A stretch of 64,000 nt of DNA from Rivularia sp. MS3. GTDB taxonomy: Bacteria; Cyanobacteriota; Cyanobacteriia; Cyanobacteriales; Nostocaceae. The position numbers and the translations under genes were made by a program. The stretch lies in the NCBI GenBank assembly GCA_019192545.1, contig JAHCMI010000007.1, forward strand, positions 1 to 64,000, written 5' to 3'. Each line of letters starts with the position of its first letter. Position 1 is the first letter of the stretch. Below, in pieces: positions 3,797-41,048 of this stretch. The notes beneath the pieces were generated by a model. That model had not been told where the DNA came from. It did not search any database and saw only the letters and a list, made by a program, of their open reading frames with translations.

Positions 3797-3798
3797 AA

Positions 3799-5602: not shown

Positions 5603-5668
5603 AGCAACGGATGACTGTTGCATTTCCTTAGATAAAACTTTGAAAGTAGTAGTAAACAATCTGATCTT

Positions 5669-5722
5669 GTTGGGTTACTCTACGAGAAAGCTCCGCTTAC
5701 ACTTTATTCAACCCAACCTACA
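5669..5722. repeat. Dispersed palindromic repeat with GTTGGGTT ends
   Basis: A short element bounded by GTTGGGTT and AACCCAAC, of a kind common in cyanobacterial intergenic DNA. It lies just after array 1 and has no coding capacity. Confidence 0.5.
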
Positions 5723-5768
5723 TATATTTCTAGCTACTTCAAAATTTGAAAAATTAAATATCAAAAAC

Positions 5769-5798
5769 AGGTCGTGGAAAGCATCCGCGACCTTTTTT
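5769..5798 (+). terminator. Rho-independent terminator downstream of array 1
   Basis: A stem GGTCGTGG/CCGCGACC (8 bp with one G-U pair, 7-nt loop) is followed by a run of six T. It lies 167 bp past the last repeat and 190 bp before cas1, so it can end the pre-crRNA of array 1 and separate it from cas1-cas2. Confidence 0.75.
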
Positions 5799-5986
5799 CA
5801 TACCTATTTCCAAACTCACACATAAACTCATATAACTCACACACGTACACAAATACCCACCTGGGAATATGGAATTAAGTCAATCAAGTAAAAAGTAAAA
5901 AGCTAAAAGTAAAAAGAACTCTGATTTCTAACTTTTGACTTTTTACTTCTAAATTTTGACTTTAAATCCTTTCATTTTTCAAAACC

Positions 5987-14267: not shown

Positions 14268-14388
14268 AAACCACGAACCCCGAACCCCGAACCACGAACC
14301 ACGAACCCCGAACCCCGAACCACAAACTACTAACCACGAACCACGAACCACGAACCCCGAACCACGAACCACGAACCACGAACCATTA
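14268..14388 (+). repeat. Degenerate heptamer tandem array (CGAACCM)n
   Basis: About 17 tandem 7-bp units alternating CGAACCA and CGAACCC, with a few altered units. It reaches into the stop-codon region of the giant helicase gene (stop at 14386-14388). Reading frames across it give only a PNHEPRT-type repeat and are not genes. Confidence 0.85.
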
Positions 14389-20300: not shown

Positions 20301-20778
20301 TTGCTAACCGCTTTGCTTGGTCAGTAGCAAGAGCATTCATCGGGTAAATAAGTAGCGCTTTAATACCCGATTCGCTTTCATGCTGATAGCAGTGGTCGAG
20401 AATAGGTAACATAAAACATTCCGTCTTACCAGAACCCGTTCCCGTAGCGACGAGGGTTGATTGGTAATAAGGTAATTTTAAGCGGTCAAAAGCTTGTTCC
20501 TGATGACGATGAGGAGGAAAAGCCATTGGTACATCGGGGAAATAGTCCGTACCTGTGGAACCGGGACGGAATGGTAAACCAATGGAAAGGTAAGGACCTT
20601 TGAATATTGCTTCTGGGGTTGATAGGAAACGTTGAATTAAATCCTCGAATCCTGGGGAAGCGGGACGGAATTCGGTTTTGAGAAAATCTTGAATGCTCTG
20701 ACGAATCTCAAAACAACTATAATAATTGGGAAAAAATAATGATTCAAGCAATCGATTCAGAACAGGTTTTCGTTTCAA
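14386..20778 (-). CDS. Giant DEAD/DEAH-type helicase with zinc clusters, DUF1998-like and nuclease-like regions
   Basis: This 2130-aa superfamily 2 helicase has Walker [13 protein letters not shown] (residues 109-120), DEAH-type box [13 protein letters not shown] near 248, SAT as GTSATLGG, and motif [13 protein letters not shown] near 1060. Many CxxC pairs ([45 protein letters not shown]) suggest zinc ribbons. [17 protein letters not shown] is the cysteine cluster typical of DUF1998/MrfA-type helicases. After it, [10 protein letters not shown] and [14 protein letters not shown] look like a PD-(D/E)XK/Vsr-like nuclease, with a second such segment at the C-terminus. Helicases of this kind occur in DISARM-like defence sets, but no methyltransferase or drmC partner is seen. 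The start is uncertain: the TTG at 20778 overlaps the divergent 20739 gene by 40 bases. Confidence 0.85.
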
Positions 20779-26510: not shown

Positions 26511-27911
26511 CAGGGTAAGCGCGTCTCAAATCCTATTGACATATAGGTTTTGAGACATGATTATGGTGATATAAGCAAGCAGTAAGAATCGTTAACATAT
26601 AGTTATTATCCATAGCTGCTCGATTGGATTTTTGACGATTACTACGCTTGAATGATTGCTCCAAATTCAATGCGTTAAGTGCAATTCGCCTCAGTAATGA
26701 CAGATTTTGTGGAGCGTGGCCAGTACGAATACGGCAAGTGTCTTCATTGAAAGTAACATCTAAAGTCCAATGCAGGCCGTTTTCAATACCCCAATGTAAG
26801 CGGATGGCTTGTGCTAATTTACGAGCATCACAATCCAAACTAGTTAAATAAAATTGAACTTCACGAGTTGTTTTATTCCAGAGATGTCGAACTCGAACCA
26901 CCATAACAACGCATTTAAGACCGACCCAATCTGAGTGATTATGTAAAGGTGGTAATTGAGAAATCGGAATGCACCAAACCTGTCTTTTTTCGGTACGGTG
27001 ATGACCTTTTTCTATCCTTCGATCATAACTATGAATAACACCTTTAAATCCTTGCAGTGATTGCTGCTCAAACCAATCTTTTACTTGTCTGTGAAGTGTA
27101 GGATGATTTCCTTTAAGTGCTAGAACATAATCCGCTTTTTGATTAAAAATCTGAGATGCAATTGCTGTTTGAGTACCCATTGCATCAATAGTAATGATAC
27201 ATCCTGCAATATCTAATAATTCCAATAATGCTGGAATTGCTGTAATTTCATTTGATTTATCCGCTACTTTCACTTGTCCTAAAACAAGGCGATATTTACT
27301 TGACCATGCACTTACTAAGTGTAAAGCGGACTTATTCTGTTCCCTATCATAAGAACCTTTAAGAGTTTTACCATCGATGGGAATTACTTGCGCTCCACAG
27401 CATTCCACTATTGATTCTATCCAATGTCTAAAGCATTGCTCAAACACTTTTGGATTAATACGTTCAAATACTCGCCTAAATGTATCTGGACTTGGGATAC
27501 CTTCAGGTAAACTTAAAAACTGTTCGAGCCATTCATATTTACTTAATCCATAATTTTCCATATCCTCCCATCCCTTACCTCCTGCAATTACTGATAATAT
27601 TCCAATGATTAGAATATCTTGTAATAAATGAACACGAGTTCTTTCTACACGGGGGTCTTCTACGGAACTAAAAATTTCTCCTATTCTTTCTGTTAATACG
27701 GTCGCCGACGCTATACTCAAAGCTTTGGAGCTTTTAACCTCTTTAGATGGAGATTTGAAACCGAATACCACAAGATTATCCCTGATCAAAAGTAGATGCC
27801 TTAATTTTCAGCGTACTACTTAACATATTTACAACTCAAATATGTTTGATTCATCATACTTTTGCTAAATAATCTGTATTCTCATACACCTTTTTAGATG
27901 CGCTTACCCTG
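26511..27911. mobile_element. ISAs1-type insertion sequence, about 1.4 kb
   Basis: Both ends share the inverted repeat CAGGGTAAGCGC(G/A)TCT: 26511-26526 on the left and the complement of 27896-27911 on the right. CAGGG ends, size and transposase agree with the ISAs1 family. The flanking bases (GACACTAC left, GGTGAAAA right) show no target duplication, so the copy may have been rearranged or the duplication decayed. Confidence 0.85.
26533..27789 (-). CDS. ISAs1-family DDE transposase
   Basis: A 418-aa transposase. The N-terminal domain (VEDPRVERTRVHLLQDILII, then GKGWEDMENYG) is typical of the DDE_Tnp_1-associated region. The catalytic core has VIPIDGKTLKGSYD (first D), ITIDAMGTQ (second D) and the C-terminal HWGIENGLHWTLDVTFNED with the glutamate in Y/H-(2)-R-like context. 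Length is slightly above the family average because of the N-terminal extension. It fills nearly the whole IS and has no visible stop or shift, so it may be active. Confidence 0.93.
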   Translation of the reverse strand: MIRDNLVVFGFKSPSKEVKSSKALSIASATVLTERIGEIFSSVEDPRVERTRVHLLQDILIIGILSVIAGGKGWEDMENYGLSKYEWLEQFLSLPEGIPSPDTFRRVFERINPKVFEQCFRHWIESIVECCGAQVIPIDGKTLKGSYDREQNKSALHLVSAWSSKYRLVLGQVKVADKSNEITAIPALLELLDIAGCIITIDAMGTQTAIASQIFNQKADYVLALKGNHPTLHRQVKDWFEQQSLQGFKGVIHSYDRRIEKGHHRTEKRQVWCIPISQLPPLHNHSDWVGLKCVVMVVRVRHLWNKTTREVQFYLTSLDCDARKLAQAIRLHWGIENGLHWTLDVTFNEDTCRIRTGHAPQNLSLLRRIALNALNLEQSFKRSNRQKSNRAAMDNNYMLTILTACLYHHNHVSKPICQ

Positions 27912-27941
27912 GGTGAAAAAGTATTCAATACAAAGTCAATC

Positions 27942-28190
27942 ATGAAAGCTAACTCTCAATTAGACCTAGATAAAATCTCTGAATGTAGTGATAAATTAGA
28001 GGAAATATTAGAAAACTATGGAATGGATGTTTTTTGTGAAGCTGTTACTGAATTATTTAACTATCATCCTTTAACAAAACCAACTAATTACAGTTATAAA
28101 AGTTGGATGGTTTTGATGCTTCCCAATGATTTTGAACCGGATTCTGTTGTGGGGATAGAAAATATTATGTTGACAGCAAGCGATGTGTAA
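27942..28190 (+). CDS. Small hypothetical protein
   Basis: An 82-aa acidic protein starting MKANSQLDLDKISECSDKLE, with NYGMDVFCEAVTELFNYHP in the middle. No family is recognised. It begins 31 bases right of the IS end, so its promoter may be partly within the IS or lost. It converges with the 28205 gene, 14 bases apart. Confidence 0.45.
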   Translation: MKANSQLDLDKISECSDKLEEILENYGMDVFCEAVTELFNYHPLTKPTNYSYKSWMVLMLPNDFEPDSVVGIENIMLTASDV

Positions 28191-28204
28191 ACAAACATAA
28201 AAAT

Positions 28205-28744
28205 TTAAATATACTCTATTTGAAAATCGCGAGGATTTTGCAAAATAAACACATCATTTTCTTTCACCAAATCTCCCATACAAACAACAGGTAGGCGTTC
28301 TTGATAAGCTTTGATAGCCAAAATATAATTATAGTCGGTAAATTCTGTTTTGATTTTGCGTAATTTCTCAAAAACTGAGCAAACAATTGTTATTTCACCG
28401 CTTAATTTATCTTTGTGAGGAGTTGCAATTTGCGTGACAAAGCCTTGAATTTTCAAATGAGGATAATTATTAATAAATTCGTTTAAAATTTCAAGCTGTG
28501 AAAGATTTTCTGAGGTTGCTAGTGTTTCAATGGCTTCACGAATTCTCGGAAGATAATCTCTCACATTTTTTGTATTTGGTAGTAAGATTTCAAATTCACC
28601 TTGTCCTACTACTTGCTTATGCCAAATTGTAGCATTGTCAAGAAATGGTCTGTCTTCGTACCAACCGTGAGATTGCAAATACTCTTTGAGTTGTTGTGGT
28701 TCTATATTTTCGATTATTGGAGCATCTTGTACTGTAATTTTCAT
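28205..28744 (-). CDS. Hypothetical protein downstream of DUF4365 gene
   Basis: A 179-aa protein of unknown function. Its N-terminus (QLKEYLQSHGWYEDRPFLDN, then WHKQVVGQGEFEILLP) is shared by many cyanobacterial proteins found paired with DUF4365 genes; the C-terminal half contains IVCSVFEKLRKIKTEF and a hydrophobic strand. It overlaps the DUF4365 frame by 4 bases (ATGA), so the two are translationally coupled and should act together. A nuclease-immunity or nuclease-accessory role is conceivable. Confidence 0.55.
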   Translation of the reverse strand: MKITVQDAPIIENIEPQQLKEYLQSHGWYEDRPFLDNATIWHKQVVGQGEFEILLPNTKNVRDYLPRIREAIETLATSENLSQLEILNEFINNYPHLKIQGFVTQIATPHKDKLSGEITIVCSVFEKLRKIKTEFTDYNYILAIKAYQERLPVVCMGDLVKENDVFILQNPRDFQIEYI

Positions 28745-29239
28745 GGTTGTATCCCTTGACCAATGTCTTGCATAATTGACTCAAGAACAGCGACACTAAA
28801 TTTATTATTTCTCGGTATGCTAACAGTTACAGTCGATTTGTTTTGTGTTTCTGGCATTCCTCGTAGTGATAACCAATAGCCGCAATACCTCATACAAAGT
28901 TCTTGTTCTGATTGTCTCACCCAGTCGCCTAAGTTGTCGGGAAGTAAAACAACTACTAAAATTCTTGGAATAGCAAAATCAACCATTCGCAAATCATCGT
29001 AGTTTTTTAGCTTGATAGGATAGCGTAGCAGCTTATCCGTCAGAACATCCCTTGATGTTGATTTTAACTGCAATTCTAAGCGAGGCGCACGAATACGACA
29101 AGATTGTACCTCTAGCAGCAATTCCCCAGTCTACGCTGTCGTCATCTACTGCTGGTCTGTAGAGAGAATAACCTGCAACACTAGTTACGGCTTGAAGATA
29201 TGCGTTGCTAAATTGTTCTTTCTGTTGATTGATTTCCAC
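28741..29239 (-). pseudogene. DUF4365 protein, frameshifted
   Basis: The N-terminal half (EINQQKEQFSNAYLQAVTSV, then DDDSVDWGIAARG) is read from 29239. The C-terminal half (IRAPRLELQLKSTSRD, LKNYDDLRMVDFAIPRILVV, GYWLSLRGMPETQNKSTVTV) is in another frame. Together they give a complete DUF4365 protein of about 165 aa, a family predicted to have a PD-(D/E)XK-like fold (D in DDDSVDWGI, QLK as the ExK-like core). The shift lies at about 29105-29125, and total length is one base off a multiple of three. It is either an inactivating indel or a sequencing error. Confidence 0.82.
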
Positions 29240-29427
29240 TTAATATTTTGTTTAATTTGAATGCAATTTTGAGTTTACACAATTCCTGCATCGTTTCTCA
29301 AATTGAGAAGCTATTTTTCGGAAATTTCCTGAAATGAATAAAATGAAAATACTTGATTAAAAAAATGTATAAACTTGAAAAACATTATATATAAAGCAAG
29401 CCAGGTTGAAAAATAACGGTGAGAACA

Positions 29428-29787
29428 ATGACAAATCAAACCGAACAAAACTCAACCGCTAAAATCCGCGCTCTCAACGATAAATTCCGTCAAACATTTG
29501 ATGCCAAACTAGGAAAAGTAATCATCACACACGGAGTCGGTTGTTTAAATACAAATCAGCTACAACAGTTAATTCAAGCGGTAAAGCAATTTAGCGATTT
29601 CAATGAAAATAACGACCCTTGGAAAGAACATGATATGGCTAAAATAGAGCTATTTGATGAACAGTTTTACTTTAAAATAGATTACTTTGACCGACAAAAA
29701 TATCAACAAGGTATCGGCTCAGAAGAACCATACAACGTTGATAAAACGTTTCGAGTCATGACGATTATGCTTGCAAGCGAATACTAA
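29428..29787 (+). CDS. DUF3768 family protein
   Basis: About 119 aa from the ATG at 29428 (a GTG three codons upstream is less likely). KIRALNDKFRQTF, then NNDPWKEHDMAKIEL, FYFKIDYFDRQ and the ending VMTIMLASEY are hallmarks of DUF3768, a small family frequent on plasmids of proteobacteria and cyanobacteria, with no known activity. It stands alone, convergent with the 29845 gene. Rightward transcription could end at the imperfect hairpin GACGCTTGCG/CGTAAGCGTC at 29798-29825. Confidence 0.75.
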   Translation: MTNQTEQNSTAKIRALNDKFRQTFDAKLGKVIITHGVGCLNTNQLQQLIQAVKQFSDFNENNDPWKEHDMAKIELFDEQFYFKIDYFDRQKYQQGIGSEEPYNVDKTFRVMTIMLASEY

Positions 29788-29797
29788 TTTATCAGAA

Positions 29798-29828
29798 GAC
29801 GCTTGCGATAACTTTCCGTAAGCGTCTC
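29798..29828 (+). terminator. Hairpin terminator after DUF3768 gene
   Basis: AGACGCTTGCG at 29797-29807 pairs with CGTAAGCGTCT at 29817-29827 (one mismatch/G-U region), 9-nt loop. The T tail is short, so activity is plausible but not certain. Confidence 0.5.
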
Positions 29829-29844
29829 TTAAGATATAAGCAAA

Positions 29845-30090
29845 TCAAAATTCTATCTCTTCAGAATCTTGATTACTTCTATTTTCCTCAATCATTTGAT
29901 TAAATTCTTCAGAATTAACAAGTTTTTCGGTTTCTTCGTTTTCTTTATCTCGTTCTTCCATTCTTTTCAAATCATCGCTAGTCGGGTAATATAGTTGGTC
30001 AACATCAAGCTTTCCTTCTGCCAATAATTCTCCCGATGTTTTATCTTGATAAGGATTACGAATTGAAATATATTCTTTCTTTTGAGTCAT
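29845..30090 (-). CDS. Small charged hypothetical protein
   Basis: About 81 aa, rich in E, K and D (KRMEERDKENEETEKLVNSE), probably helical or disordered. The start is set by AAAGGAGG on the minus strand: it touches an upstream ATG with no spacing, but lies 9 bases before the ATG at 30090, which I take as the start. It is the last gene of the leftward plasmid-core group, 48 bases after the 1259-aa gene. Confidence 0.55.
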   Translation of the reverse strand: MTQKKEYISIRNPYQDKTSGELLAEGKLDVDQLYYPTSDDLKRMEERDKENEETEKLVNSEEFNQMIEENRSNQDSEEIEF

Positions 30091-30138
30091 TTTACACATC
30101 CTCCTTTTTTGATACTGAATTTAATTTAAGCGAAAATA

Positions 30139-33100
30139 TTAGTAACCATTCTCCACATTATTCTCTATTTTTACCGATTGATTTCCAGCGATTCGAGCGT
30201 AAATAGAAGGTGCTATCTGTTGAAAATGTTGAACATCTGCTTCACTTAAACCATTAGCTTCAATTTCTTCAACAGTATTACCAATTGACAGCGCTTGATA
30301 CTCCCCATCAGAATACTTAACTTGCATTTTCGGATTAGATGAACCATTAGTCCATAAAGTAATCTCTTGTGTTTGAGGATTCCAGCTTACTGTATTTAAC
30401 TTCCCTTCTACTGTTGTTTTATCCTGAGTAGAAAGAAAAGCATGAATAATCGGTGCAACTTCTAATGTACGATTAGCTTGGATTTGTTGTGCTAATAAGA
30501 ATTTATTTTCGGAAGGCTCATTCTGTGGAATTATACTCCACTCTTCGGGATACTCTATTGTACTCGCATCGATTACAACTTTTGCTGCTGAAGGTGGAGC
30601 AGCGGTAATTTTACCTTTGACGGTGTAACCCTGTAACGGAATCTTATGAGCTTTCAATATTGCTGAAAGTTTATCGAATGATTCGGGTTTTAATTCTCCC
30701 AACTTCCTGTCTTTAATCATTGCAACCCCGACATCTGGTTTCTGAGGATTTCTACTTGGTTTAACGGAAATAGTCACAGTAGCTTGGTAACTTTGTTTGT
30801 TCCAATCCACATCAACGAAAGCTCCCGATTTTAACTTATTCACCTCGATTGAATTACCTTTCGGTGTAGTAATAGTTACCCCGGTACTTGCTTCACTAGT
30901 TATCGTAGCTTTGGCGATCGCACTTACAGGAAGTTGAGCATCAGAGGCTGAAAGCATTCCTAATTTCTTATCTTCTGCGATTAACCAACGTCCCTGTAAT
31001 GATGAATCAATATAGCTAGGAGCTAATTCAATTTGTATCGGAACTGTCTCCCCTTTCCAAACTTTTCCTTTATGTTCGGAAGCATCTCTATGAGTTCCTA
31101 CAACCGTAAGTTCGGTAAACTGAAGTTGGTGAAGTTGCTCCTTTATTTCTTCCCCAAAAATAGCAAAAACTGCACCGGCACGTTTATTAATATCGTACTC
31201 TTCTTTAACTCGTTTAGTTGATAGATTCCACATCGCTGCTGCTACCACTAATCTTTCTTTCTCTCGAATATGTTCTCTCGTTTTGGCAGCATATTCATAA
31301 GCTAATTTAAAAGCAGCTTTTTCGTGAGAAGAATTAAGAGCAGGATTGATATCGATATCAAGTTTACCAAGCTCAATCCAATTGTTTTTATTTTTATGGT
31401 GTAGTGTTTGAAAAGTCTCTTTATTCTTAATAATAGAAGCTTCCGTTAACAATCCCAACTGCTTTTTTGCTGGTACAACTTGCCCACGTTTATTAATTGT
31501 AGTTTCTCCCGGTACTACAGCAAATGCTTTATAGTGATTCTTGTCTTTAAGTAGAGAAATTTGCATCTGAGTAAGAGAATAAGCTTGAGGATGTTTGGTA
31601 TCTTTTTGATTTAATTTAATTTTTATCTGGTTCCCCTTCTTAGATTTCGCCACCATCCTTAAATTCGGTTGATGTCGATTTGCTTCTACTTCCTGCTTAA
31701 TATCATGGGCTGCTCGAATTAATCTTTCATATTGTTGCTTGTAAGTTGCTGCAATCTCAAGCTGTGAAGAATTAAAATCAATACCTCTAAATAAATATTT
31801 AAACTGAGATAGCGGACGAGGGGTAAGAGCATTACTTTCAAAATGCTGGTTAGTTTCTTGAACTAATAAATCAATTGCGGTATGTAGATTACTTCTAATC
31901 GGTTTATCTAAATAAGCCCATTTTTCATTACGGTCTTCAAGAGCATAAACTTGAGGATAAGCACATAATTCTGTACATAATTTGATTATTTCTGGGTCGC
32001 TACGTAACGCGCTTTTACCGCTTTGTCCCTCAATCTTCAATTGCTGGTCAATTACACCAGATAAATTATGAAATAACTGCCGTGCTTTTGCTAATCCTTC
32101 GGAAACTTGTTCGGGTGTGATAGTATTATTTATTTCTGATTCCTGTAGTGGTATTAAATAATCTTGAAAAGAATTATTTGAACTTTGATTTTCAAAATTT
32201 AAACGATAATTGTATTCACTAAAATCATTTAATAACTCTCGTAAATGTTCTGCTTCTTTAGGTAGATTATAAGAAGCGCATCGAGCAAGATTAGCTGATA
32301 AACTTGCTAAAAATGTTCTTTGCTCGTTAACAGGAATTTGACTACACTCAGATTCAATTGCAATTGCTTTCATCGCTAAGTTAGCTACAATTCCGATATT
32401 GTCTTGAGCAGCTTCTAAAGCTATCTTCTCAAAACTTCCACAGTAAGCTGCTTTCTGAGGTAAAACACTTTCTGGATAACGGTTTTCTGGTTGAGTTTTG
32501 AACTCAATTTCTTGTGTGGTGCTGGGAAAATCTTGAGCTAGTGCAGTTAAAGGTTTATCACCATCACAGTCACTATTAAGAGCGGTAGCTGTGCGACGAT
32601 TAAGTTTAATACTACCGGGATTGACTTCTTCCCCTTCCAATAAGCGATTCGTAAGTACTGCCATGACGTTTGTATTACCGACTGGGGGACGATGATATAA
32701 AACTTTCGCACCGTCAGGTTTGGTATGGTCACAAATCTCCCAATCTTTCAAACGGTTGCAAGTCATCAGCATCGAAGACTGAAATCTGATAACTCTTCCG
32801 GTAGCGCAATCCCGATATTGTTCTTGAAGATGTTCTGACAGAAAATTGATAACCTTTGGTGTTTCGATAATTTGTAGATGTCCTTCTAAATCAGCTTTGA
32901 GAAGCTGGTACATTAATTCGGTGTCTTTATCCCCAAAAGCTTCGTCAACCACATTTCCAAAATCATCCAAATCGAAATCATGGATTAACTTAGTTCCGGT
33001 TTCTCTTTTAAAATCACCTTCTAGCCTTCTTTCCACCGTTTGAATATAATCTAATGCAACCTTACGCGGGTCATTCGCAATATTATCTAATTGTGCCAAA

Positions 33101-33918
33101 CGCTGTTGTACCCTGGGTAAAGCATCATTTTTCGCACCTTCAGGCAATCCTATCCAGTATTGAGCGCCCGTTGCAGCTTCTACCGTGCGGGCATTTTCGC
33201 GATTACCAATACCGATTGTAAGAGTATATTCTCCCGGTTCCACTTCTATTTGTCGATTAATTCTTATCCCGGTTTTTTCGTTATAAAGTTTATTTTTGCG
33301 TCCTTTACCCAATTGAGATTTAGAAAGTACTAAATCATAACCACTTCCAATATTAGAAAGATTAACTGGTGCTAAAGTGCCTTTTATTGTTTGATTTGCG
33401 TTAATTCCCTCCTGGACTTTAATAATTCCTCTTACTTGGAACTGAGTAGAAGGAATATTACCCAACTTTTCGTGTAATTTATGGTCAATCCGTCCATCTC
33501 CATCTCCTACAAGTAACAAAGCCTTCTGTTCTGGTAAAACTCCCCCACACTCCCCGGTTTCATCATTTACTACCAACACTTTAATATCTTCGACTTCAGA
33601 AAAATACTCGCATTCGCCAAATAGCAAAGAACCATATGCAGCACCAAAATGTGGTTCGTCAAAAATTTGTAACCGCAATCCTGGTTCATCAGAAAAGTAT
33701 AGTCGGTCTTTTTTAGAAAACTGAAGATACTTACCTTGATGCTTAGTCAAATCATCCTCAGTTGAGATTCCAGGATAAACAATGCCGATACTCCACTTCA
33801 CATCATTACCATAAAGATATTCAGCAGCAGTATTTTCCAAAGTTTCAATTAAAGGTTTACCATCAACTTCTATAGGTTTACCTGTTTTGGTACAGAAATA
33901 TTCTAGAGCAATTGACAT
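30139..33918 (-). CDS. Large plasmid protein with RNA polymerase-like DxDGD motif
   Basis: A 1259-aa protein. N448 to D454 reads NSDCDGD, matching the NADFDGD active-site signature of RNA polymerase beta' (D450, D452, D454 would hold magnesium). The context matches too: YHRPPVGNTNVMAVL then NPGSIKLNRRTATAL stand where beta' has its NRAPTLHR and HPLVC blocks. After it, DNIGIVANLAMKAIAIES resembles the IG-x-x-x-N segment of cell-type RNA-dependent polymerases. A lysine-rich stretch (GYDLVLSKSQLGKGRK, 194-208) could be the first double-psi barrel. The last third holds two similar beta-rich modules. I infer a single-chain, two-barrel polymerase (YonO/QDE-1-like), possibly a plasmid transcriptase or primase. 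It is near partition genes and leftward; upstream gap is 60 bases with a CCTGCCCC repeat. Family-level assignment is inference. Confidence 0.6.
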   Translation of the reverse strand: MSIALEYFCTKTGKPIEVDGKPLIETLENTAAEYLYGNDVKWSIGIVYPGISTEDDLTKHQGKYLQFSKKDRLYFSDEPGLRLQIFDEPHFGAAYGSLLFGECEYFSEVEDIKVLVVNDETGECGGVLPEQKALLLVGDGDGRIDHKLHEKLGNIPSTQFQVRGIIKVQEGINANQTIKGTLAPVNLSNIGSGYDLVLSKSQLGKGRKNKLYNEKTGIRINRQIEVEPGEYTLTIGIGNRENARTVEAATGAQYWIGLPEGAKNDALPRVQQRLAQLDNIANDPRKVALDYIQTVERRLEGDFKRETGTKLIHDFDLDDFGNVVDEAFGDKDTELMYQLLKADLEGHLQIIETPKVINFLSEHLQEQYRDCATGRVIRFQSSMLMTCNRLKDWEICDHTKPDGAKVLYHRPPVGNTNVMAVLTNRLLEGEEVNPGSIKLNRRTATALNSDCDGDKPLTALAQDFPSTTQEIEFKTQPENRYPESVLPQKAAYCGSFEKIALEAAQDNIGIVANLAMKAIAIESECSQIPVNEQRTFLASLSANLARCASYNLPKEAEHLRELLNDFSEYNYRLNFENQSSNNSFQDYLIPLQESEINNTITPEQVSEGLAKARQLFHNLSGVIDQQLKIEGQSGKSALRSDPEIIKLCTELCAYPQVYALEDRNEKWAYLDKPIRSNLHTAIDLLVQETNQHFESNALTPRPLSQFKYLFRGIDFNSSQLEIAATYKQQYERLIRAAHDIKQEVEANRHQPNLRMVAKSKKGNQIKIKLNQKDTKHPQAYSLTQMQISLLKDKNHYKAFAVVPGETTINKRGQVVPAKKQLGLLTEASIIKNKETFQTLHHKNKNNWIELGKLDIDINPALNSSHEKAAFKLAYEYAAKTREHIREKERLVVAAAMWNLSTKRVKEEYDINKRAGAVFAIFGEEIKEQLHQLQFTELTVVGTHRDASEHKGKVWKGETVPIQIELAPSYIDSSLQGRWLIAEDKKLGMLSASDAQLPVSAIAKATITSEASTGVTITTPKGNSIEVNKLKSGAFVDVDWNKQSYQATVTISVKPSRNPQKPDVGVAMIKDRKLGELKPESFDKLSAILKAHKIPLQGYTVKGKITAAPPSAAKVVIDASTIEYPEEWSIIPQNEPSENKFLLAQQIQANRTLEVAPIIHAFLSTQDKTTVEGKLNTVSWNPQTQEITLWTNGSSNPKMQVKYSDGEYQALSIGNTVEEIEANGLSEADVQHFQQIAPSIYARIAGNQSVKIENNVENGY

Positions 33919-33978
33919 GATTTCTTAAGCCTACGAATGCTTCTCCCCTGCCCCCTGCACCCTGCCCCCTGCCTCTTA

Positions 33979-34707
33979 TCACGGTTCTACAAACTTACGC
34001 TTTGTCGGCGGAGTAGCCCAAACAAAACAATGTCCTGACTTTGCTTTACGTCCGTACTGAGATAAAATCACACCTAACCTTTGAGCATCTTTTATGCATT
34101 CTCCATTCTCCAGATAACCCCTATTCCAATCAATCAAATTTCTGGCGAATTTTCCTTCTCTAGACATCGCCCATTTCATTGCTTCCAACTCATTCCATGT
34201 CAAAGTATTGGACTGCACCTTTGTATATCCACCGCTTATCATCCCTGCAATCCAAGGAGGCGTTAAAATTCCGAAAATTGCTCCAACTCCCAGGGTGAAA
34301 AATAATAATAAACCTGCCGGAAGTACAGAAGTTAAAAGTTTTCGGCTTTCTGTAAACTGTGCTTTACGAATTAGAGCATGAGCAGCTCTATCAATAGCTA
34401 CTTTCTGACGCTCTACCGCAACTTTTTCCACTTGGTGTAAATTGCGAGCCAAATCTTGATTCCAAGTCTCGAACAGCAGTTGCAGAACTTCCGGCGCATC
34501 TTTTAGCATTACTTCTAATTGTCCGGTAGCGACCAAAATCAGAAATAAAGGGTCATCCTGGGATAAACCGCAGCTCACAGCAAAACTCAATACTTGCTTT
34601 TTAAACTCTTCGCTTTTACCATTTAGAGCTTCAGCCAGAAACTTATTAACTTGGTCATTTTCTTCCCGATTTGAGTTTTTATCACCGGGAGCAACTTCCT
34701 GTGTCAT
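33979..34707 (-). CDS. Membrane protein of plasmid core, unknown function
   Basis: A 242-aa protein. Residues 1-120 are soluble and helical (KFLAEALNGKSEEFKKQVLS, HQVEKVAVERQKVAIDRAAH), followed by a hydrophobic hairpin VLPAGLLLFFTLGVGAIFG and WIAGMISGGY at about 127-160, and a C-terminal domain with LTWNELEAMKWAMSREGKFA and two cysteines. Similar proteins accompany partition genes on cyanobacterial plasmids (perhaps DUF6753, not certain). Its ATG overlaps the stop of the ParA-like gene (ATGA at 34704-34707), so the two are co-translated. It may anchor the ATPase to the membrane. Confidence 0.55.
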   Translation of the reverse strand: MTQEVAPGDKNSNREENDQVNKFLAEALNGKSEEFKKQVLSFAVSCGLSQDDPLFLILVATGQLEVMLKDAPEVLQLLFETWNQDLARNLHQVEKVAVERQKVAIDRAAHALIRKAQFTESRKLLTSVLPAGLLLFFTLGVGAIFGILTPPWIAGMISGGYTKVQSNTLTWNELEAMKWAMSREGKFARNLIDWNRGYLENGECIKDAQRLGVILSQYGRKAKSGHCFVWATPPTKRKFVEP

Positions 34708-35735
34708 TTAACCAATCCCGTTTCGGAGAACGCTGTATGGACTTCTGCAAGAAAATTCTTGACTCGCTGTCTCGATATCACCTTTATTTGAGGATGAGAA
34801 AGCGCACTATTAAAAGTAATCCCTAACCTATCAATCACATTTCTTTCCCAGAATGGAAATTTTGGGAAATCCATCTCTTTAAATTTATGAGTCTCTTTAG
34901 CAGTGAGAAAATCTGGCATTTCATCTACATAATCCCACTCATCGCACAATCCCAAATTTTTTACAAATACATGAGTTACCCTATCTCCTAAATCATTCAG
35001 AGATTTGATAAAGAAATCAACAGAATCTACACCTCCCGTACATACAAACCATTTCACAAAAGTAATTTGATATTCCTTACCTATCTCATCCAAATCATTC
35101 GTCTTTATCCAGTCAGTTACCTTTGAATAAACTTGAGCAGGTAAATTAACAATCACGGATTTTTCAAATGCCAAATCAAAAATGTGGTCGGCTTGATTGG
35201 CTTTTTTATCATCATCGCTAAATATTGCTGAATGCACATTATCATAAATATGAGAAATATCTTCATTACTCTTATCTGCATCCACAATTGCGACTTTATG
35301 TTTTATAGAAGCGCAATATTCTATTAGGGCTCTACTAACAAACGACTTGCCTGCGCCCCCTTTTTCACCGCCTATGATATGAATAGTTGTAGGAGTTTTG
35401 ACTAGTTTTTCTTGATGGGTAACAGTGTTATTTGTGTTAGTAGATATTGGAGCAGTAATTACAGATTTATCTTCATCTGAATTAGATTGTAATAATTCTG
35501 TATGGGGTAAACTTGAATCACCCTCCAATTCTTTAGCCCAATCTTGAGCAGAAGTTTCACCAGATGGGTTAATTTCATTCTCAGTATTTGAATTTTCAGT
35601 TATCTGAGGTTTTTCTTGCATTGTTATAGATATACCTTGTGAATTATTATTTGAAGCAGTAGAAGAATTAGTGTTTTTCTTTGGTCTACCTCTCTTTCTT
35701 TTTTCCGACTGTTGATTTTCTGCTGTATCGCTCAT
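34704..35735 (-). CDS. ParA/MinD-like P-loop ATPase
   Basis: A 343-aa protein. The N-terminus is low-complexity with an AT-hook-like KRKRGRPKK at about residues 12-20. Residues 118-320 are a deviant-Walker ATPase: HIIGGEKGGAGKSFVSRALI (KGG-x-GKS), then VAIVDADKSNEDI as the A'/switch motif, and VIVNLPAQVYSKVTDW. This class positions plasmids or conjugation complexes (ParA, VirC1, MobD). The downstream membrane protein is coupled to it. A ParM/ParR pair lies upstream, so this ATPase is more likely to serve relaxosome or conjugation positioning than basic partition. Confidence 0.8.
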   Translation of the reverse strand: MSDTAENQQSEKRKRGRPKKNTNSSTASNNNSQGISITMQEKPQITENSNTENEINPSGETSAQDWAKELEGDSSLPHTELLQSNSDEDKSVITAPISTNTNNTVTHQEKLVKTPTTIHIIGGEKGGAGKSFVSRALIEYCASIKHKVAIVDADKSNEDISHIYDNVHSAIFSDDDKKANQADHIFDLAFEKSVIVNLPAQVYSKVTDWIKTNDLDEIGKEYQITFVKWFVCTGGVDSVDFFIKSLNDLGDRVTHVFVKNLGLCDEWDYVDEMPDFLTAKETHKFKEMDFPKFPFWERNVIDRLGITFNSALSHPQIKVISRQRVKNFLAEVHTAFSETGLVK

Positions 35736-35765
35736 TTGATAAATCCCCGCTTTGATGATAATAAA

Positions 35766-36206
35766 TTATTCAGAAAACGAACCTAAACTACCCCATTCTC
35801 CATTCCCTACTTCAACTTCCAACTGTCCGACAAGCTTTGTTTCATTTTTGTGAGAAACATTGGAATTTTTTTCAGCTTTAAGCTCATTTGATTTACCTGT
35901 TTGAGCTAAATTATCATTGCTTATAAGTGAGTTATAAAACCGCTCCAGTCCTAAAGACGAGCAAATATAATCAGCGTGAAGCAATAACTCTCTAACAGCA
36001 TCTCTACCTAGTTGTTGTTTAATGTTCAAAGGAATTACATCATCTTCAAGTAACATTAAAGGCAGCCAATAGGGACGAATAGCTTGCATTATCAAAGTAT
36101 TGACAGAGCTTAGTTGATGATGTCTTAGATAATTTAAAACTTTTTCTTCTGGAGTTCCCACAAAAGGTTGAAATCTGATGCTGTAGTCAACTCTTCGTTT
36201 CTTCAA
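35766..36206 (-). CDS. ParR-like partition adaptor
   Basis: A 146-aa protein starting with a basic segment MKKRRVDYSIRF and followed by helices (EEKVLNYLRHHQLSSVNTLI) in the style of ribbon-helix-helix ParR adaptors; the C-terminal third is disordered and acidic. The start is one base after the parM stop, so it is coupled. ParR proteins bind centromere iterons and cap ParM filaments. Assignment rests mostly on position and size; the sequence itself is too divergent for certainty. Confidence 0.65.
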   Translation of the reverse strand: MKKRRVDYSIRFQPFVGTPEEKVLNYLRHHQLSSVNTLIMQAIRPYWLPLMLLEDDVIPLNIKQQLGRDAVRELLLHADYICSSLGLERFYNSLISNDNLAQTGKSNELKAEKNSNVSHKNETKLVGQLEVEVGNGEWGSLGSFSE

Positions 36207-36207
36207 C

Positions 36208-37341
36208 TTACGCTACCTCATCAACCGAACTTGAACTAGACATGAAATACAAAAACATCCCATAAGCATCTGTAAGTCTGGTTCCTAATTTGTACGTATC
36301 TACAGCATCGGGAACCACAACCCCACCGTGCCAGATGCAAGGTGTAGCAGAATAACGAGAATTGAGTTCTTTTTTCAAATAATCTGCCGTACCTCCACAA
36401 AAAACTATTTCATCAACATCGCGGGGAACTACGTTATTTAACCAAGATATTAACGTTGCGATATAAAGATTTTTCGCTTCTTTCATTGCCTTTACCAGCG
36501 CTGCTACTTCCTCATTGCGAGCTGCAACTGTAGTGCTACGAGTTAACTTATACAAAGGGGTTGGATTGATATCGTACCCACTGGCAATTATAGTTCTACA
36601 TAAATCAGATTCCGACAACCCGCTGGTTTTAGTCATAACGGTTTCTATCATCCGCACCATACCTAAATCCGAAGTTTTACCGCTGTCTAATGCTCCCCGA
36701 TAGCTTACTAAAACTGAAGCATTGCGATATCCAATCATGATAATTGCGCTTTTGCGCTGCCCAATTTCTACTCCTACTCGCTTGGAATGAAGTAAAAATA
36801 CTCCCGCACCTTCTGGATAACAATTAAATCTTCCTAACTCCAGTGACATATTTCCTGAAGGAGTTTCAAAGCTTGTAAGAAGGGAGCGCAAAATATGTTC
36901 AAATTTCTTTCTGGATTCATATTCGCTAGCTGGAAGCAATACAGCCAAATCAAATTTAAAACAACTACCCAGTTTTAATTTTTGCGCTAAAACCCAAACA
37001 CTTGCCAAAACTTTGTACAAACCTCGTTCATACTTAAGCTCTTTTAATCCAGCATTAGCATAAAAGCGCGATGCAGCTAAATATCCAACCGCTGCATACT
37101 TTCCACCAAATCCCACCCAAGCAGCATTTGTAGGTTCGCATATTCCTAAATTATTTTGCGATAAGTCATCAATCGCAGCTTTAGGTACTGCGATTACTTC
37201 CGGTTCCATAAATAAACTCCCAGGTTTACCGTCAGCGCTTGCATAAATTGCTTTTAAACCACTACCACCAATGTCAGCCGCGAGAGTTAATTGAACCGGA
37301 GTACTATTTTTTTGTACTGTTTTTCGATTATTTTTACCCAT
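36208..37341 (-). CDS. parM: ParM/StbA-like actin-type partition ATPase
   Basis: A 377-aa actin-fold protein. The phosphate-1 motif LTLAADIGGSGLKAIYASA is at about 17-35; an internal segment RKSAIIMIGYRNASVLVSYR would be phosphate-2, and DEIVFCGGTADYLKKEL the adenosine motif (G-G-T). These, the length and the coupled small downstream gene identify a type II partition system, whose filaments push plasmid copies apart. The upstream 37362-37411 iterons fit a centromere that also serves as operator. The ATG at 37341 has no strong ribosome site. Confidence 0.85.
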   Translation of the reverse strand: MGKNNRKTVQKNSTPVQLTLAADIGGSGLKAIYASADGKPGSLFMEPEVIAVPKAAIDDLSQNNLGICEPTNAAWVGFGGKYAAVGYLAASRFYANAGLKELKYERGLYKVLASVWVLAQKLKLGSCFKFDLAVLLPASEYESRKKFEHILRSLLTSFETPSGNMSLELGRFNCYPEGAGVFLLHSKRVGVEIGQRKSAIIMIGYRNASVLVSYRGALDSGKTSDLGMVRMIETVMTKTSGLSESDLCRTIIASGYDINPTPLYKLTRSTTVAARNEEVAALVKAMKEAKNLYIATLISWLNNVVPRDVDEIVFCGGTADYLKKELNSRYSATPCIWHGGVVVPDAVDTYKLGTRLTDAYGMFLYFMSSSSSVDEVA

Positions 37342-37354
37342 GTTTTATGAAGAA

Positions 37355-37415
37355 GAAATTGTGAGTAAATATTGAGTAATAGTGAGTAAGCTGTGAGGGA
37401 TAAATGAGGGATTGA
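37355..37415. repeat. parC: Helically phased iterons, candidate parC centromere
   Basis: Five TGAG(T/G)(A/G)A heptamers start at 37362, 37373, 37383, 37394 and 37405, with steps of 11, 10, 11 and 11 bp. They all lie on one face of the helix, as ParR-binding iterons do, and begin about 20 bp before the parM start codon, where they would also act as operator. Confidence 0.65.
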
Positions 37416-38285
37416 TAATTTTATCTAATACCATTTTTTGAATAAATTACCTCCTATATTCCTCACCAAATACTCGTTACATAGTTTTTGATAACTACTT
37501 CATTGTACAATTCTTATAGCAATGCTTTGAGGTTTTATTCGGTCGTCTTTGTGGCTCTGAATACAGCGTAATTGTGTTGGAATAAAATAATTAAATCATT
37601 TAGCTCGGTTTATTGCGCTCCAAATATATTCCAGCCTGTTGATAAGTTCATTTGTAAACACACTACACAATTTTTTTATTTACGGCTTGAATAATTATTG
37701 CGCTGAAATTAAACCCCAGTTTTCGTTCAATTAATTTCTTTCAAGCGTCTTACTAGAATCGGTATTAACAATGCTTATCACTCCAAATAATAAATCAATC
37801 TCGTTTGATTTGTAGTTAGCAATTTTAATTTTCAACATTTTTGATTCTTGATAACTTTAACAATCTTTCTATTTAGTAACTAATGAGGAGTAGAAGCGGC
37901 AATCTAGCAATAGGAAGATTATTTTTTCTCGCATTTACAGCAAAAACCTATCGTATTAAAAATTATTTTTGGGTTAAATAGAATAAATATTGAATAAAAC
38001 ACTGTAGCTATTGCTATGAATAAATCTTAAGCATATAAAGGCAGAAAAAATTTTGTGTATAATTACATTAATTTAAAACAGTAAATGCTAAAAATAGTAC
38101 ATAAGCTTTGCTGCGAAATCAGATTAATTAGAAGGAAATACATAGAGTATATGTAACTTATAAATGTAGTCTTAAATTCATACGTAAGCTGATAAGCTTG
38201 CTTTAAAGGTAAAATTTAGTTGCATCTACTGCGTAAATTCAAAAACTTTGCTTCCGAATAACGTATTATTTTATGAGGTGACATA
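37416..38285. other. Long AT-rich non-coding region between parM and Uma2
   Basis: About 870 bp with no supported ORF. It separates divergent parM and the Uma2-MobV pair, so it must hold the rightward promoter, and it is the best place in the window for oriV or oriT. I found no clear iteron family or strong hairpin beyond the phased heptamers at its left end. Confidence 0.4.
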
Positions 38286-38918
38286 ATGTTTGCTGTTGTC
38301 ACGCCCAAAGAAATTCATTTACCCCCTGGAACGGTTTTAAAATTACCCGGTAGTTGGGATGAGTATCAATCCCTATCCGTACAGCTAGGGGACCGTTCTT
38401 CTCCCCGCATCAAATATCGACCCGGAGAAATTATGTTGATGGCACCGCTACCAGAACACGGACGTAAAGCGAGCTTAATTGCTGATGTGGTCAAAGTTTT
38501 GCTCGATTATCTAGAGCAGGAATATGAGTCATTTACTCCAATTACAATGGAGTTATCTTCCATAAGCGGTATTGAGCCGGATTACTGCTTTTATATTGAT
38601 AATTGGATGGCGATCGCCGGAAAAAATAGAATTGATTGGAGTGTTGAACCACCACCGGATTTAGCTATCGAAGTAGACGTAACAAGCTATACGGATATCA
38701 ATGATTATCTACCCTACCGCGTACCGGAAGTTTGGTTATTTAAAAAGAACCAGCTTAAAATTTACGGTTTGGAAGATGATAAATATGTTGAAAAAACTAA
38801 CAGCCGTTATTTCCCAAATATCAATATTTTAGAAATTGTAAACGAATGTTTCCGAATTGCTTACGAGCGAAATACTAGCGCTGCAATTCGAGATTTGAGA
38901 CGCAAATTGGATTCGTAA
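38286..38918 (+). CDS. Uma2 family endonuclease-like protein (DUF820)
   Basis: A 210-aa Uma2-type protein, a family greatly expanded in cyanobacteria, with PD-(D/E)XK fold. The core is visible: GIEPDYCFYIDNW (EPD), then PPPDLAIEVDVTSY (E-x-D, standing in for ExK) and YRVPEVWLFKKNQLKIYGL. The activity of these proteins in the cell is unknown. The ATG follows GAGGTGA at 38275-38281. It is 37 bases upstream of the relaxase gene and probably in the same transcript. Confidence 0.9.
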   Translation: MFAVVTPKEIHLPPGTVLKLPGSWDEYQSLSVQLGDRSSPRIKYRPGEIMLMAPLPEHGRKASLIADVVKVLLDYLEQEYESFTPITMELSSISGIEPDYCFYIDNWMAIAGKNRIDWSVEPPPDLAIEVDVTSYTDINDYLPYRVPEVWLFKKNQLKIYGLEDDKYVEKTNSRYFPNINILEIVNECFRIAYERNTSAAIRDLRRKLDS

Positions 38919-38955
38919 GAAGGTAAAAACTATAAATAAAAAATAATAAAAAGCG

Positions 38956-40623
38956 ATGATACCGCTAGCCGTCTGTAAAATCCAGAAAATCAAAAGCTGG
39001 GGAATGCTCAAAGGCAATGAAGCCCATACTGCAAGAGAAAGAGATACCCCTAATGCAAACTCAGAAGTAACCAATATACGAATTATTGGCGATTCTTCCA
39101 ATCTAGATTTAGCAACTTTAGTAAGACACGCAATCGGTTCGCAAAAAATTCGTTCAAATGCTGTTCTTGCAGTAGAAATGTTGCTCAGTGCAAGTGCTTC
39201 CTATTTCCGTCCCAATGCACTTCAAGAAGCAGGAACTTATGAAAAACAGCGTTTAGACAACTTTGTGGAAGCGTCTGTTGATTGGTTGTATTCTTCTTGG
39301 GAAAACCGAGTAGTTAGAGCAGAGTTACATCTTGATGAAATTACACCTCATATTCACGCTTATATCGTTCCGTTAGACGATAAAGGTAAACTTAACTGTC
39401 GGGGATTGTTTGGTGGAAAAATGAAATTATCCGAATTGCAAGACAGTTTTGGAAGGGCTGTCGAACATTTAGGTATCTCTCGCGGGATTAAAGGTAGCAA
39501 AGCAACTTACACCACGCTCAAAAAATACTATGCTGCGGTAAATCAAGATTCCCAACTTATAAATTTAGAATGCTTTCTTCCGAAAAATAGGGTGTCTGAA
39601 ACAAGCGAAGAGTATCGACAGCGAATAATTCAAATTTTGAATCCAGAGTTTGAAATAATTAATTACCAGCTCAATCAACGTTCTCGCTTGCTCAAGCAAT
39701 TTAACGAGTTAAAACGAACTGCAATACAAAACGAAAAACTTCGCCAAAAATTAGAGTCAGAATTACGAATCCTCAAAACAACTATTGAACGTGAAGAATT
39801 GCCTTTAGGCTTGGTTGCTTATGAATTAGGGATAAATTTAGATAACCAATGGTTGTCCAAAGCCAACGCTATCGACTTAGTGATGCGAGTCAATCAGTGC
39901 AAATTTGATGATGCACTTATCTGGTTACGCGACAAATTCGGAGAGGAGCAGATGCTAGCTGCGGTAACTAATCAAGTAGCTAGTAGAGCTTTAAATATTT
40001 CACATCAATATCCGACAAAAGTATTCGTACCACCAGTACCCGATAAAAGTCTTTGGAAAGAAGTTGAGAAATATTTCCAAAACCATTACTGTATTCCCCA
40101 CAAATTGACACAAACACTTAATCAGCGTGGTTTGCTATATGCAGATAGTAATAGTAACGCCGTATTTTTGGCACGAAATCTTTCTTTTGAAACTACCGGA
40201 GCTTATCTATGCTCATTGAAAAATACCGCGAATGCTTTTAGTTTATATCCTGGAAGTAAACGTTCTGGTGGTTGGTTTCATCTGAGTATGGGAAGAAGCT
40301 CTGATAATCCTGTAACAGCAGCAATGTTAACTGCTTCGCCAATTGAATCGTTATCTCTAGCGATATTAAACGCTCCTCATACAGACAGAACTCTTTATTT
40401 ATCCATTGACCAAATTTATTCAAATAGTCTTCTAGAACAGCACATCCCTATACCTGTGCAATTTCTACAAAATGTACCGAATGTAGTTATTACTATCCCC
40501 AATAAAAATGTAGCAGCCATTCAAAAGCTTTTACCTCATTCAACCAAATTACAGCCAAGAACTACTTGGAATAAAGAATTACAACAACGTCTAGGAGTTA
40601 AAAACTATGCCACGTTGGAATAG
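38956..40623 (+). CDS. mobV: MobV-type relaxase with C-terminal TOPRIM-like domain
   Basis: A 555-aa mobilisation relaxase that nicks and attaches to oriT DNA. The HUH motif ELHLDEITPHIHAYIVPLDD (H-x-D-E-x-T-P-H-x-H) is at about residues 124-143, and the N-terminus MIPLAVCKIQKIKSWGMLKG with AHTARERDTPNANSE matches Mob_Pre motif I. The linker is coiled (residues 230-280). The C-terminal half (YFQNHYCIPHKLTQTLNQRG, then ESLSLAIL and TLYLSIDQI) looks like DUF3991/TOPRIM, common in cyanobacterial MobV. The stop at 40623 is directly followed by the IsrB-like element. Confidence 0.92.
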   Translation: MIPLAVCKIQKIKSWGMLKGNEAHTARERDTPNANSEVTNIRIIGDSSNLDLATLVRHAIGSQKIRSNAVLAVEMLLSASASYFRPNALQEAGTYEKQRLDNFVEASVDWLYSSWENRVVRAELHLDEITPHIHAYIVPLDDKGKLNCRGLFGGKMKLSELQDSFGRAVEHLGISRGIKGSKATYTTLKKYYAAVNQDSQLINLECFLPKNRVSETSEEYRQRIIQILNPEFEIINYQLNQRSRLLKQFNELKRTAIQNEKLRQKLESELRILKTTIEREELPLGLVAYELGINLDNQWLSKANAIDLVMRVNQCKFDDALIWLRDKFGEEQMLAAVTNQVASRALNISHQYPTKVFVPPVPDKSLWKEVEKYFQNHYCIPHKLTQTLNQRGLLYADSNSNAVFLARNLSFETTGAYLCSLKNTANAFSLYPGSKRSGGWFHLSMGRSSDNPVTAAMLTASPIESLSLAILNAPHTDRTLYLSIDQIYSNSLLEQHIPIPVQFLQNVPNVVITIPNKNVAAIQKLLPHSTKLQPRTTWNKELQQRLGVKNYATLE

Positions 40624-40637
40624 AGAGCGCATTCACT

Positions 40638-40844
40638 GACCCCGGACTAAAGTCACGGGGATTGTAAAGAGCAAACTTTACGTAGCAGTGCAATAGCCCA
40701 AGAGACTAATCCTGATACGCACCTCCAAGTGCTTCTCCAGCTTGGATTATTTGCAAGGTTATTTGTTTAGCCGTTGGGTAGAGCCAAGACATTTTGGATT
40801 AGTTGGGCGAGGAGACTAATTACTTAGACTCGGAGGGTTATACC
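40638..40844 (+). ncRNA. Candidate omega-RNA (HEARO-like) of the IsrB-like element
   Basis: About 200 non-coding bases directly upstream of the RRXRR/RuvC gene, as expected for omega-RNA of IscB/IsrB systems. It starts with a stem CCCCG/CGGGG around GACTAAAGT (40640-40660), then GTAAAGAGCAAACTTTAC (40664-40681), and further short stems. The guide would come from the sequence just left, that is the end of mobV. I have not folded it by computer. Confidence 0.55.
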
Positions 40845-41048
40845 ATGCAACGAGTACCAGTTATTAATAAAGAGGGATACCCCCTGATGCCAACAAAACC
40901 AAGTAGGGCGAGGCGTTGGCTAAAAAGCGGTAAAGCTGTTATCTGGAAAAACAAGCTTAATGTGTTCGCAATCCAATTAACAGTAGATGCTGCCAAAGGC
41001 GATACACAGCCCTTAGTGGTTGGTATCGACCCCGGTAAGCTATATACC
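40845..41048 (+). CDS. IsrB-like RNA-guided nuclease, exon 1 (RRXRR and RuvC-I)
   Basis: Exon 1 begins at ATG 40845, with CGGAGGG at 40831-40837 as ribosome site. It encodes the RRXRR/PLMP domain (INKEGYPLMPTKPSRARRWL, then KSGKAVIWK) and RuvC-I as LVVGIDPGK, and stops being colinear after ACC at 41048, where GTGCG opens a group II intron. Joined to 43565, the frame reads GIDPGKLYTGIAIQS, matching IscB/IsrB proteins. Such proteins are transposon-encoded ancestors of Cas9 that use omega-RNA. Without splicing, translation stops at 41066. Confidence 0.82.

Follow-up and report, generated by a model that had tools for sequence, protein, structure and literature searches.

A predicted single-chain two-barrel RNA polymerase encoded beside segregation and mobilization genes on cyanobacterial plasmids

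A polymerase-like protein encoded as one chain

The first 64,000 nucleotides of contig JAHCMI010000007.1 of the cyanobacterium Rivularia sp. MS3 (assembly GCA_019192545.1), hereafter called the window, encode a protein of 1259 amino acids (aa) that, judged by its sequence and a predicted structure, belongs to the YonO/QDE-1 class of two-barrel polymerases and consists of a single chain. That it adopts the two-barrel polymerase fold is close to certain, and by analogy with the studied members of the class it very probably synthesizes RNA. The explanation we prefer, and regard as probable, is that of an active RNA polymerase of YonO/QDE-1 type which is carried by mobilizable cyanobacterial plasmids and by integrated elements and would transcribe plasmid DNA.

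The gene reads from 33918 to 30139 on the minus strand, starts with ATG and contains no internal stop; the plus strand has no readable frame across 30139-33918. A preliminary description of this DNA had proposed the 1259-aa open reading frame (ORF), without naming its strand; the frame is real and open throughout. It had also likened residues 448-454, NSDCDGD, to an RNA polymerase loop written NADFDGD, letters that were its own; five of the seven positions are identical. The other blocks that it had pointed out are RPPVGNTNVMAV (residues 410-421), NPGSIKLNRRTATAL (433-447) and DNIGIVANLAMKA (506-518). The features of the protein are as follows (dN/dS, ratio of nonsynonymous to synonymous substitution rates; pLDDT, predicted local distance difference test; pTM, predicted template modelling score).

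30139-33918, minus strand: single-chain two-barrel RNA polymerase-like protein, 1259 aa (ORF, family conservation, AlphaFold2 and Foldseek, dN/dS 0.13)
33304-33384, minus strand: lysines K179 (KGT motif) and K205 (KG motif), proposed first-barrel lysines (each in 113 of 114 spanning ORFs)
32683-32691, minus strand: R410-P-P412, counterpart of YonO R492-S-P494 (R410 in 114 and P412 in 117 of 117 ORFs)
32557-32571, minus strand: putative catalytic loop D450-C-D452-G-D454 (116, 116 and 117 of 117 spanning ORFs; aligned by hhalign onto the DxDGD of YonO)
32380-32394, minus strand: G509-IVA-N513, counterpart of YonO G593...N597 (G509 in 116 of 117)
32014-32016, minus strand: K635 (KS motif), counterpart of YonO K628 (116 of 117; linked to YonO through the protein group A6)
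30142-31686, minus strand: beta-rich C-terminal region, residues 745-1259 (AlphaFold2 pLDDT 73.7, pTM 0.42)

Conservation of the putative active site

A BLAST hit was obtained for 128 ORFs, of which 117 include the loop. The three aspartates D450, D452 and D454, whose lack of conservation would, on its own terms, have refuted the preliminary description, are kept in 116, 116 and 117 of these. All six sites K179, K205, D450, D452, D454 and K635 are intact in 108 of the 109 ORFs (106 distinct sequences) that span every one of them. The catalytic loop was not among the peptide patterns used to fetch 80 of the loci from genomes. A diverse alignment of 16 members has 23 invariant columns, including K179, G180, T181, K205, G206, N424, D450, D452, G453, D454, G509 and K635. 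Lysines had been expected at about 200-208: K205 is conserved inside that range, and K179, equally conserved, lies outside it. Together with the predicted fold, this conservation rules out a chance match to NADFDGD.

The window gene and its closest relative, at locus L042, are 85-90% identical with a dN/dS of 0.13, calculated from about 1,260 codon pairs; the L042 gene was taken in its two pieces, each compared separately, and a few codons near the break were counted double. Such a ratio indicates purifying selection. The gene is split into two ORFs at L042 and at seven further loci (L061, L068, L073, L074, L077, L081 and L082), several of which are on draft or metagenome contigs; either gene decay or assembly error could account for the breaks.

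Predicted fold

An AlphaFold2 model of residues 1-1135, built with 24 relatives, reached a pLDDT of 84.5 and a pTM of 0.79. As the preliminary description had anticipated, the model resembles two-barrel polymerases: when compared with the PDB by Foldseek, all 24 matches at E<=0.001 are two-barrel RNA polymerases. The best are QDE-1 (4.6e-11) and maize RDR2 (7.3e-11), and further matches include the phage proteins gp64, gp62 and gp96 and a crAss-like virion polymerase (1.8e-5). A viral structure library gave 19 matches at E<=0.001, two of them named RNA-dependent RNA polymerase (RdRP) and one from P23-45, most of the others being without an informative name. K179 and K205 would be expected to face the aspartates D450-D454.

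Bacterial beta' chains appear as fold matches at E 3.2e-3 or worse. The beta'-like motif of the preliminary description survives as a genuine, family-wide loop, but its nearest relatives are QDE-1, RDR and YonO, and membership of the beta' family is ruled out since both fold matches and motifs follow QDE-1 and YonO. The same data make it scarcely credible that the protein is a two-barrel DNA polymerase of the PolD kind replicating the plasmid: no PolD is among the 50 best PDB fold matches listed, and the motifs follow those of YonO and RdRP, PolD being set apart here without a direct motif comparison.

Relation to YonO and to RNA-dependent RNA polymerases

When the window family was aligned by hhalign with a profile built from YonO of SPBc2 and four other YonO-type phage proteins, window residues 347-527 matched with a probability of 91.2, an E value of 1e-6 and a score of 67.1; among the controls, the reversed YonO family reached 19.7, and none of 30 column shuffles exceeded 24.5. 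A more diverse alignment, A1, gave a weaker match (probability 77.7, E 1.9e-5). D450-D454 is paired with the DxDGD of YonO, RPP with RSP, and GIVAN with IGxxSN, which bears out the likeness to YonO-type enzymes previously suggested for DNIGIVANLAMKA. K179 and K205 are outside the aligned span and were matched to YonO K271(-G272) and K316 by order and by eye. The order KG, K, RxP, DxDGD, G(xxx)N, (D)xxK is common to the window protein and YonO. In phage phi3T (L129-L130) yonO is annotated in two pieces; it is a single gene in SPBc2.

A cyanobacterial group of nine proteins, A6, matches both the window family (E 8e-90) and YonO (E 2.9e-6, including the DxxK motif). One of its members, L025, passes the cut-off of the Pfam RdRP family PF05183 (25.9 versus 23.8 bits), a family matched in 7 of 292 cyanobacterial genomes, in 5 of them above cut-off. 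Two of 16 members match PHROG 4291, a family named RNA-dependent RNA polymerase, with a best E value of 1.5e-8, but this is weak evidence for the sub-class because the model also matches in 8 of 14 control genomes, there taken as ordinary RNA polymerase.

These relationships raise the question of whether the protein copies RNA, for silencing, regulation or signal amplification, as an RNA-dependent enzyme. QDE-1 and RDR2 are its best fold matches, the Pfam match of its relative is to RdRP, and type III CRISPR genes are present on the same contig. Yet no Argonaute, Dicer-like protein or RNase III is named in the annotated regions viewed, which were not searched specifically for them, structures of QDE-1 with DNA templates exist according to PDB entry titles, and YonO is DNA-dependent. 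We consider an RNA-copying role quite unlikely.

The C-terminal region and longer relatives

The C-terminal 515 residues, modelled apart, are beta-rich. For this segment, neither the PDB fold comparison (at E<=0.001) nor Pfam gave a match, and its assignment to a named DNA-binding domain was consequently dropped. Family ORFs reach about 2,600 aa. In L080 (L080:8001-15908, over 2,600 aa), two cpYpsA SLOG stretches (5.4e-61) follow the polymerase part, together with a macrodomain found by phmmer against the PDB (2.6e-5; Pfam Macro 0.062, below cut-off). Among nine C-terminal parts scanned, only that of L080 had a match above cut-off, and that of the window protein had none. AlkB-like and NADAR-like motifs seen by eye in L039 were unsupported by follow-up searches and dropped. 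Fusions like that of L080 bring to mind the polyvalent proteins known from conjugative elements, few of which come from cyanobacteria according to the available part of PMC5512222, a text in which the words YonO and double-psi are absent. SLOG and macro domains, found in at least one longer relative, could counter defence based on NAD or ADP-ribose.

Distribution among plasmids, genomes and phages

Homologues of the window protein were detected by tblastn in 79 of 72,556 plasmid records; 37 cover at least 80% of the query, all at less than 60% identity. In 386 cyanobacterial genomes, the family was found in 30 with the single sequence and in 40 with a profile, which reaches more distant groups. 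A scan of genome contigs returned 218 relatives, from which the 80 loci were kept, all with cyanobacterial titles. The window belongs to a contig of 177,853 bp (C131), which we infer to be a plasmid from the gene content of the window and the homologues on 79 plasmid records. The source genome contains four polymerase copies, on contigs C131, C108, C157 and C103, the one on C108 being two pieces of one open frame. Loci from Calothrix PCC 7103, PCC 7716 and NIES-267 (L045, L049-L052, L055, L067, L070, L081 and L092) occur in multiple copies per genome on megabase contigs, some of them titled chromosome, which suggests integrated elements.

No match at E<=1 was found for the window protein in 50,697 phage records by tblastn, and its relative L031 had none at E<=0.01; in viral contigs no match was confirmed. 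The view that this is a phage gene was set aside on that result, with one counterpoint: 9 of the 16 scanned members match phrog_34895, a family of unknown function (best 1.8e-64), which implies a relative in some phage despite the empty tblastn search.

Gene neighbourhood

The polymerase gene closes, save for one small gene, a row of same-strand genes separated by short gaps, which runs from a ParM-like gene through a small protein, a ParA/TraL-like protein and a DUF6753 protein to the polymerase and the 84-aa protein; a MobV relaxase gene is divergent.

38956-40623, plus strand: MobV family relaxase (NF041497, 147.8 bits, cut-off 100; PF01076 2.8e-25)
36208-37341, minus strand: ParM-like actin (no Pfam match; FcmB actin-like 4.9e-8, below cut-off; homologues annotated ParM/StbA)
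35766-36206, minus strand: small protein, a ParR adaptor candidate by position only (no Pfam match; chance-level NCBIfam match)
34704-35735, minus strand: ParA/CobQ-type ATPase, weakly like conjugal TraL, overlapping the DUF6753 gene by 4 bases (PF01656 1.4e-5; PRK13886 TraL 1.6e-8, far below cut-off)
33979-34707, minus strand: DUF6753 protein, its gene separated from the downstream polymerase gene by 60 bases (PF20538 6.2e-98)
29845-30099, minus strand: 84-aa protein directly after the polymerase gene (homologue at 1 of 80 loci, L042)
58940-60763, minus strand: type IV secretion coupling protein of TraD/TrwB type on the same contig (PF10412 1.7e-26)

The row from ParM to the polymerase is likely an operon. 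ParA and ParMR genes had previously been named as neighbours, of which the ParA-like and ParM-like genes are present and ParR is suggested by position only. Partner genes were counted by tblastn with the window proteins (E<=1e-3) at the 45 of 80 loci that have at least 7.9 kb on both sides: a ParM-like gene was found at 31, DUF6753 at 23, a ParA-like gene at 20, MobV at 16 and any of the four at 36. The polymerase profile is present in 23 of 29 genomes with DUF6753, where 3.0 would be expected if the two were independent across the 386 genomes, an excess inflated by shared ancestry and shared plasmids. Of 50 DUF6753 places, 36 were retained after 14 weaker or partial rows had been left out; at 12 of the 36 the distance to a polymerase place is at most 10 kb, and at 18 it is at most 40 kb, measured with a list of polymerase places that is itself incomplete. 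All four polymerase copies of the source genome have a DUF6753 gene at most 3.4 kb away.

Other genes of the window include type III CRISPR genes, Cmr2/Cas10 and Cas1, at 62-7006; the complete, homologous plasmid pTCL26-01_B also has a Cmr/Cas1/Cas2 set. A 2130-aa helicase-like protein at 14386-20778 has Druantia DruE as its best PADLOC match (8.7e-112), and two short ORFs at 28205-29121 match parts A and B of the PADLOC candidate PDC-M02, the part B ORF matching only both ends of longer profiles, so that it looks internally shortened. The polymerase itself has no PADLOC match at E<=0.001 and was not retained as a defence protein. At 40803-43499, an 87-aa ORF with a GIDPGK-like stretch reminiscent of IscB precedes a 592-aa reverse transcriptase of group II intron type with an HNH-like end (by eye), possibly an interrupted gene.

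A candidate nick site and the direction of transfer

37657-37665, minus strand: candidate relaxase nick site TAGTGTG/TT, putative origin of transfer (12 of 14 full-row loci, same place and orientation)

The pMV158 relaxase cuts TAGTGTG/TTA and a related relaxase TAGTGCG/TTA, according to the consulted part of PMC5090054. When the MobV-to-ParM intervals of the window and 24 other loci were compared, TAGTGnGTT occurred in 12 of the 25 and had one orientation throughout, reading from MobV towards ParM and the polymerase. All 12 are among the 14 loci with the full row, i.e., the window and 13 others with all four partner genes, some of these 12 being near-duplicates and not independent. Perfect flanking arms of at least 6 bases accompany the site at 8 of the 12 loci. 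The motif has 26 further distinct occurrences in the loci, one of which has such arms.

In conjugation, the cut strand enters the recipient with its 5' end first. Given the orientation of the nick, the ParM-to-polymerase row would enter the recipient first, and the polymerase gene would lie about 3.7 kb behind the nick, in the leading region. One tentative extension, unlikely on balance, is a leading-region RNA polymerase that, made early or delivered with the DNA, would transcribe or prime the incoming single strand before and independently of host transcription.

Under a related explanation, the enzyme would be an RNA polymerase acting like a primase, which primes the complementary strand of the incoming or replicating plasmid and takes the place of the host primase. 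It would call for the same class of enzyme and fits the leading-region position suggested by the nick site, and pTCL26-01_B has an annotated DnaB helicase with no primase named in about 82% of its record. The conserved row, however, is without a helicase or DNA polymerase, and YonO, by profile the closest studied relative on the bacterial side, is a processive transcriptase in the available portion of PMC5467207. We consider such a primer maker unlikely.

Weighing the evidence and proposed mechanism

Several observations weigh against an active, plasmid-transcribing enzyme of this class. The similarity to QDE-1 and RDR2 is limited, with modest template modelling (TM) scores (0.25-0.35 by query length) and a large root mean square deviation (7.8-16.9), indicating that only the core is shared. 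Taken alone, the window protein has no Pfam, PHROG or NCBIfam match at the thresholds used (for PF05183, none at E<=1), and the family sequence profile found no polymerase in the PDB, another profile reaching only RDR2 at E 0.37. In the column before K635, at residue 632, D is found in 112 of 117 ORFs, Q in four and N in one; the window protein has Q, where YonO has D625 of the DxxK motif, invariant in the five YonO-type proteins. As D632 is not one of the three metal ligands, this speaks against strict orthology with YonO rather than against membership of the class. The copy on plasmid pLBX of Leptolyngbya boryana (L040:8001-10775) has the replacements K179I, K205R, D450N, D452G and K635A and seems to be a polymerase that is dead or has been re-purposed. 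None of the four partner genes is seen at 9 of the 45 fully flanked loci, and no promoter motif emerged from a repeat search of 27900-41700, in which those listed, 20 direct and 25 inverted, included weak families only. As for the nick site, it is absent from 2 of the 14 full-row loci and from all 11 MobV-ParM intervals of loci without the full row, so that the leading-region reading holds for one group of loci only. The arms in the window are short (4 bases), and the motif alone is not rarer there than chance (3 found, 1.56 expected).

The altered L040 copy and Q632, together with the adjoining partition genes, would also fit a non-catalytic DNA-binding or segregation factor that retained a polymerase fold. 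Against such a factor stand the six sites intact in 108 of 109 ORFs and the dN/dS of 0.13 across the gene, and we hold it to be very improbable.

For the preferred reading of an active plasmid-borne RNA polymerase, we propose the following mechanism. One barrel would provide K179 and K205 and the other D450, D452 and D454, forming a single active site within one chain. The aspartates would hold magnesium and the lysines assist in a metal-dependent nucleotidyl transfer, a catalysis proposed because of the homology to YonO, whose Asp-to-Asn mutant could form complexes yet failed to extend RNA (accessible part of PMC5467207). The polymerase would be expressed from the row of plasmid segregation genes, predicted to be the first part to reach a new cell. 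Its task is most likely the transcription of plasmid DNA independently of the host polymerase, either on arrival or for upkeep. Plasmid DNA is the presumed template because of the gene setting and of YonO, and early action after transfer is suggested by the nick site. Dedication to plasmid transcription seems to us fairly probable, while a role at early entry is only a possibility, and not a strong one. The preliminary description had left a plasmid transcriptase, a primer maker and an RNA-copying enzyme side by side; the polymerase class that they share is supported.

If the leading-region reading is true, the plasmid would establish its segregation genes ahead of host transcription and without depending on it. 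More generally, the family raises the question of whether plasmids transcribe or prime themselves, or govern their first phase in a new host, without recourse to its polymerase. It also adds single-chain two-barrel enzymes for studying the origin of double-barrel polymerases.

Comparison with known systems

The preliminary description knew of no role described for such a protein in cyanobacterial plasmids. This holds for the plasmid setting, which we did not find described; Forrest et al., however, already mention YonO-like proteins that firmicutes and cyanobacteria carry in their main genomes (in the accessible portion of PMC5467207). No plasmid-encoded enzyme of the class in cyanobacteria was found in the literature consulted, which mostly leaves out subscription papers, where an earlier mention is possible. 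CyRepX, a plasmid Rep protein, is likewise encoded on large cyanobacterial plasmids, but it is similar to helicase domains in the available part of PMC10899382, and identity with it was set aside on that description alone.

The window protein shares five of seven catalytic-loop residues with beta' (RpoC), but cellular RNA polymerase has separate beta and beta' chains whereas both barrels are here predicted in one chain. QDE-1 and the eukaryotic RDR proteins (PF05183) are the best fold matches, and the relative L025 passes the Pfam cut-off of their family; unlike them, the window protein lacks a PF05183 match, is encoded by a bacterial plasmid gene and has no silencing partner named in the annotated regions viewed. 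The Thermus phage P23-45 type and the crAss-like phi14:2 gp66 resemble it in fold (E 1.8e-7 to 1.8e-5) and in being carried by mobile elements, but they are virus genes, some of whose products are packed in virions as far as the consulted part of PMC10770324 goes. YonO of Bacillus phage SP-beta is likewise one chain with six motifs in the same order, the middle three being aligned statistically. It differs in its length (839 aa in the SPBc2 record versus 1259 aa), in the D before the last K, where the window protein has Q, and in its phage late-gene role, whereas the window protein occurs in a plasmid segregation and mobilization setting and bears an extra beta-rich C-terminal region. The studied single-chain two-barrel polymerases on the bacterial side are, in the literature consulted, phage enzymes (YonO, the P23-45 pair and the crAss-like virion polymerase). 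A plasmid lineage that occurs across many cyanobacteria in association with genes for segregation and mobilization would represent a different use of such an enzyme.

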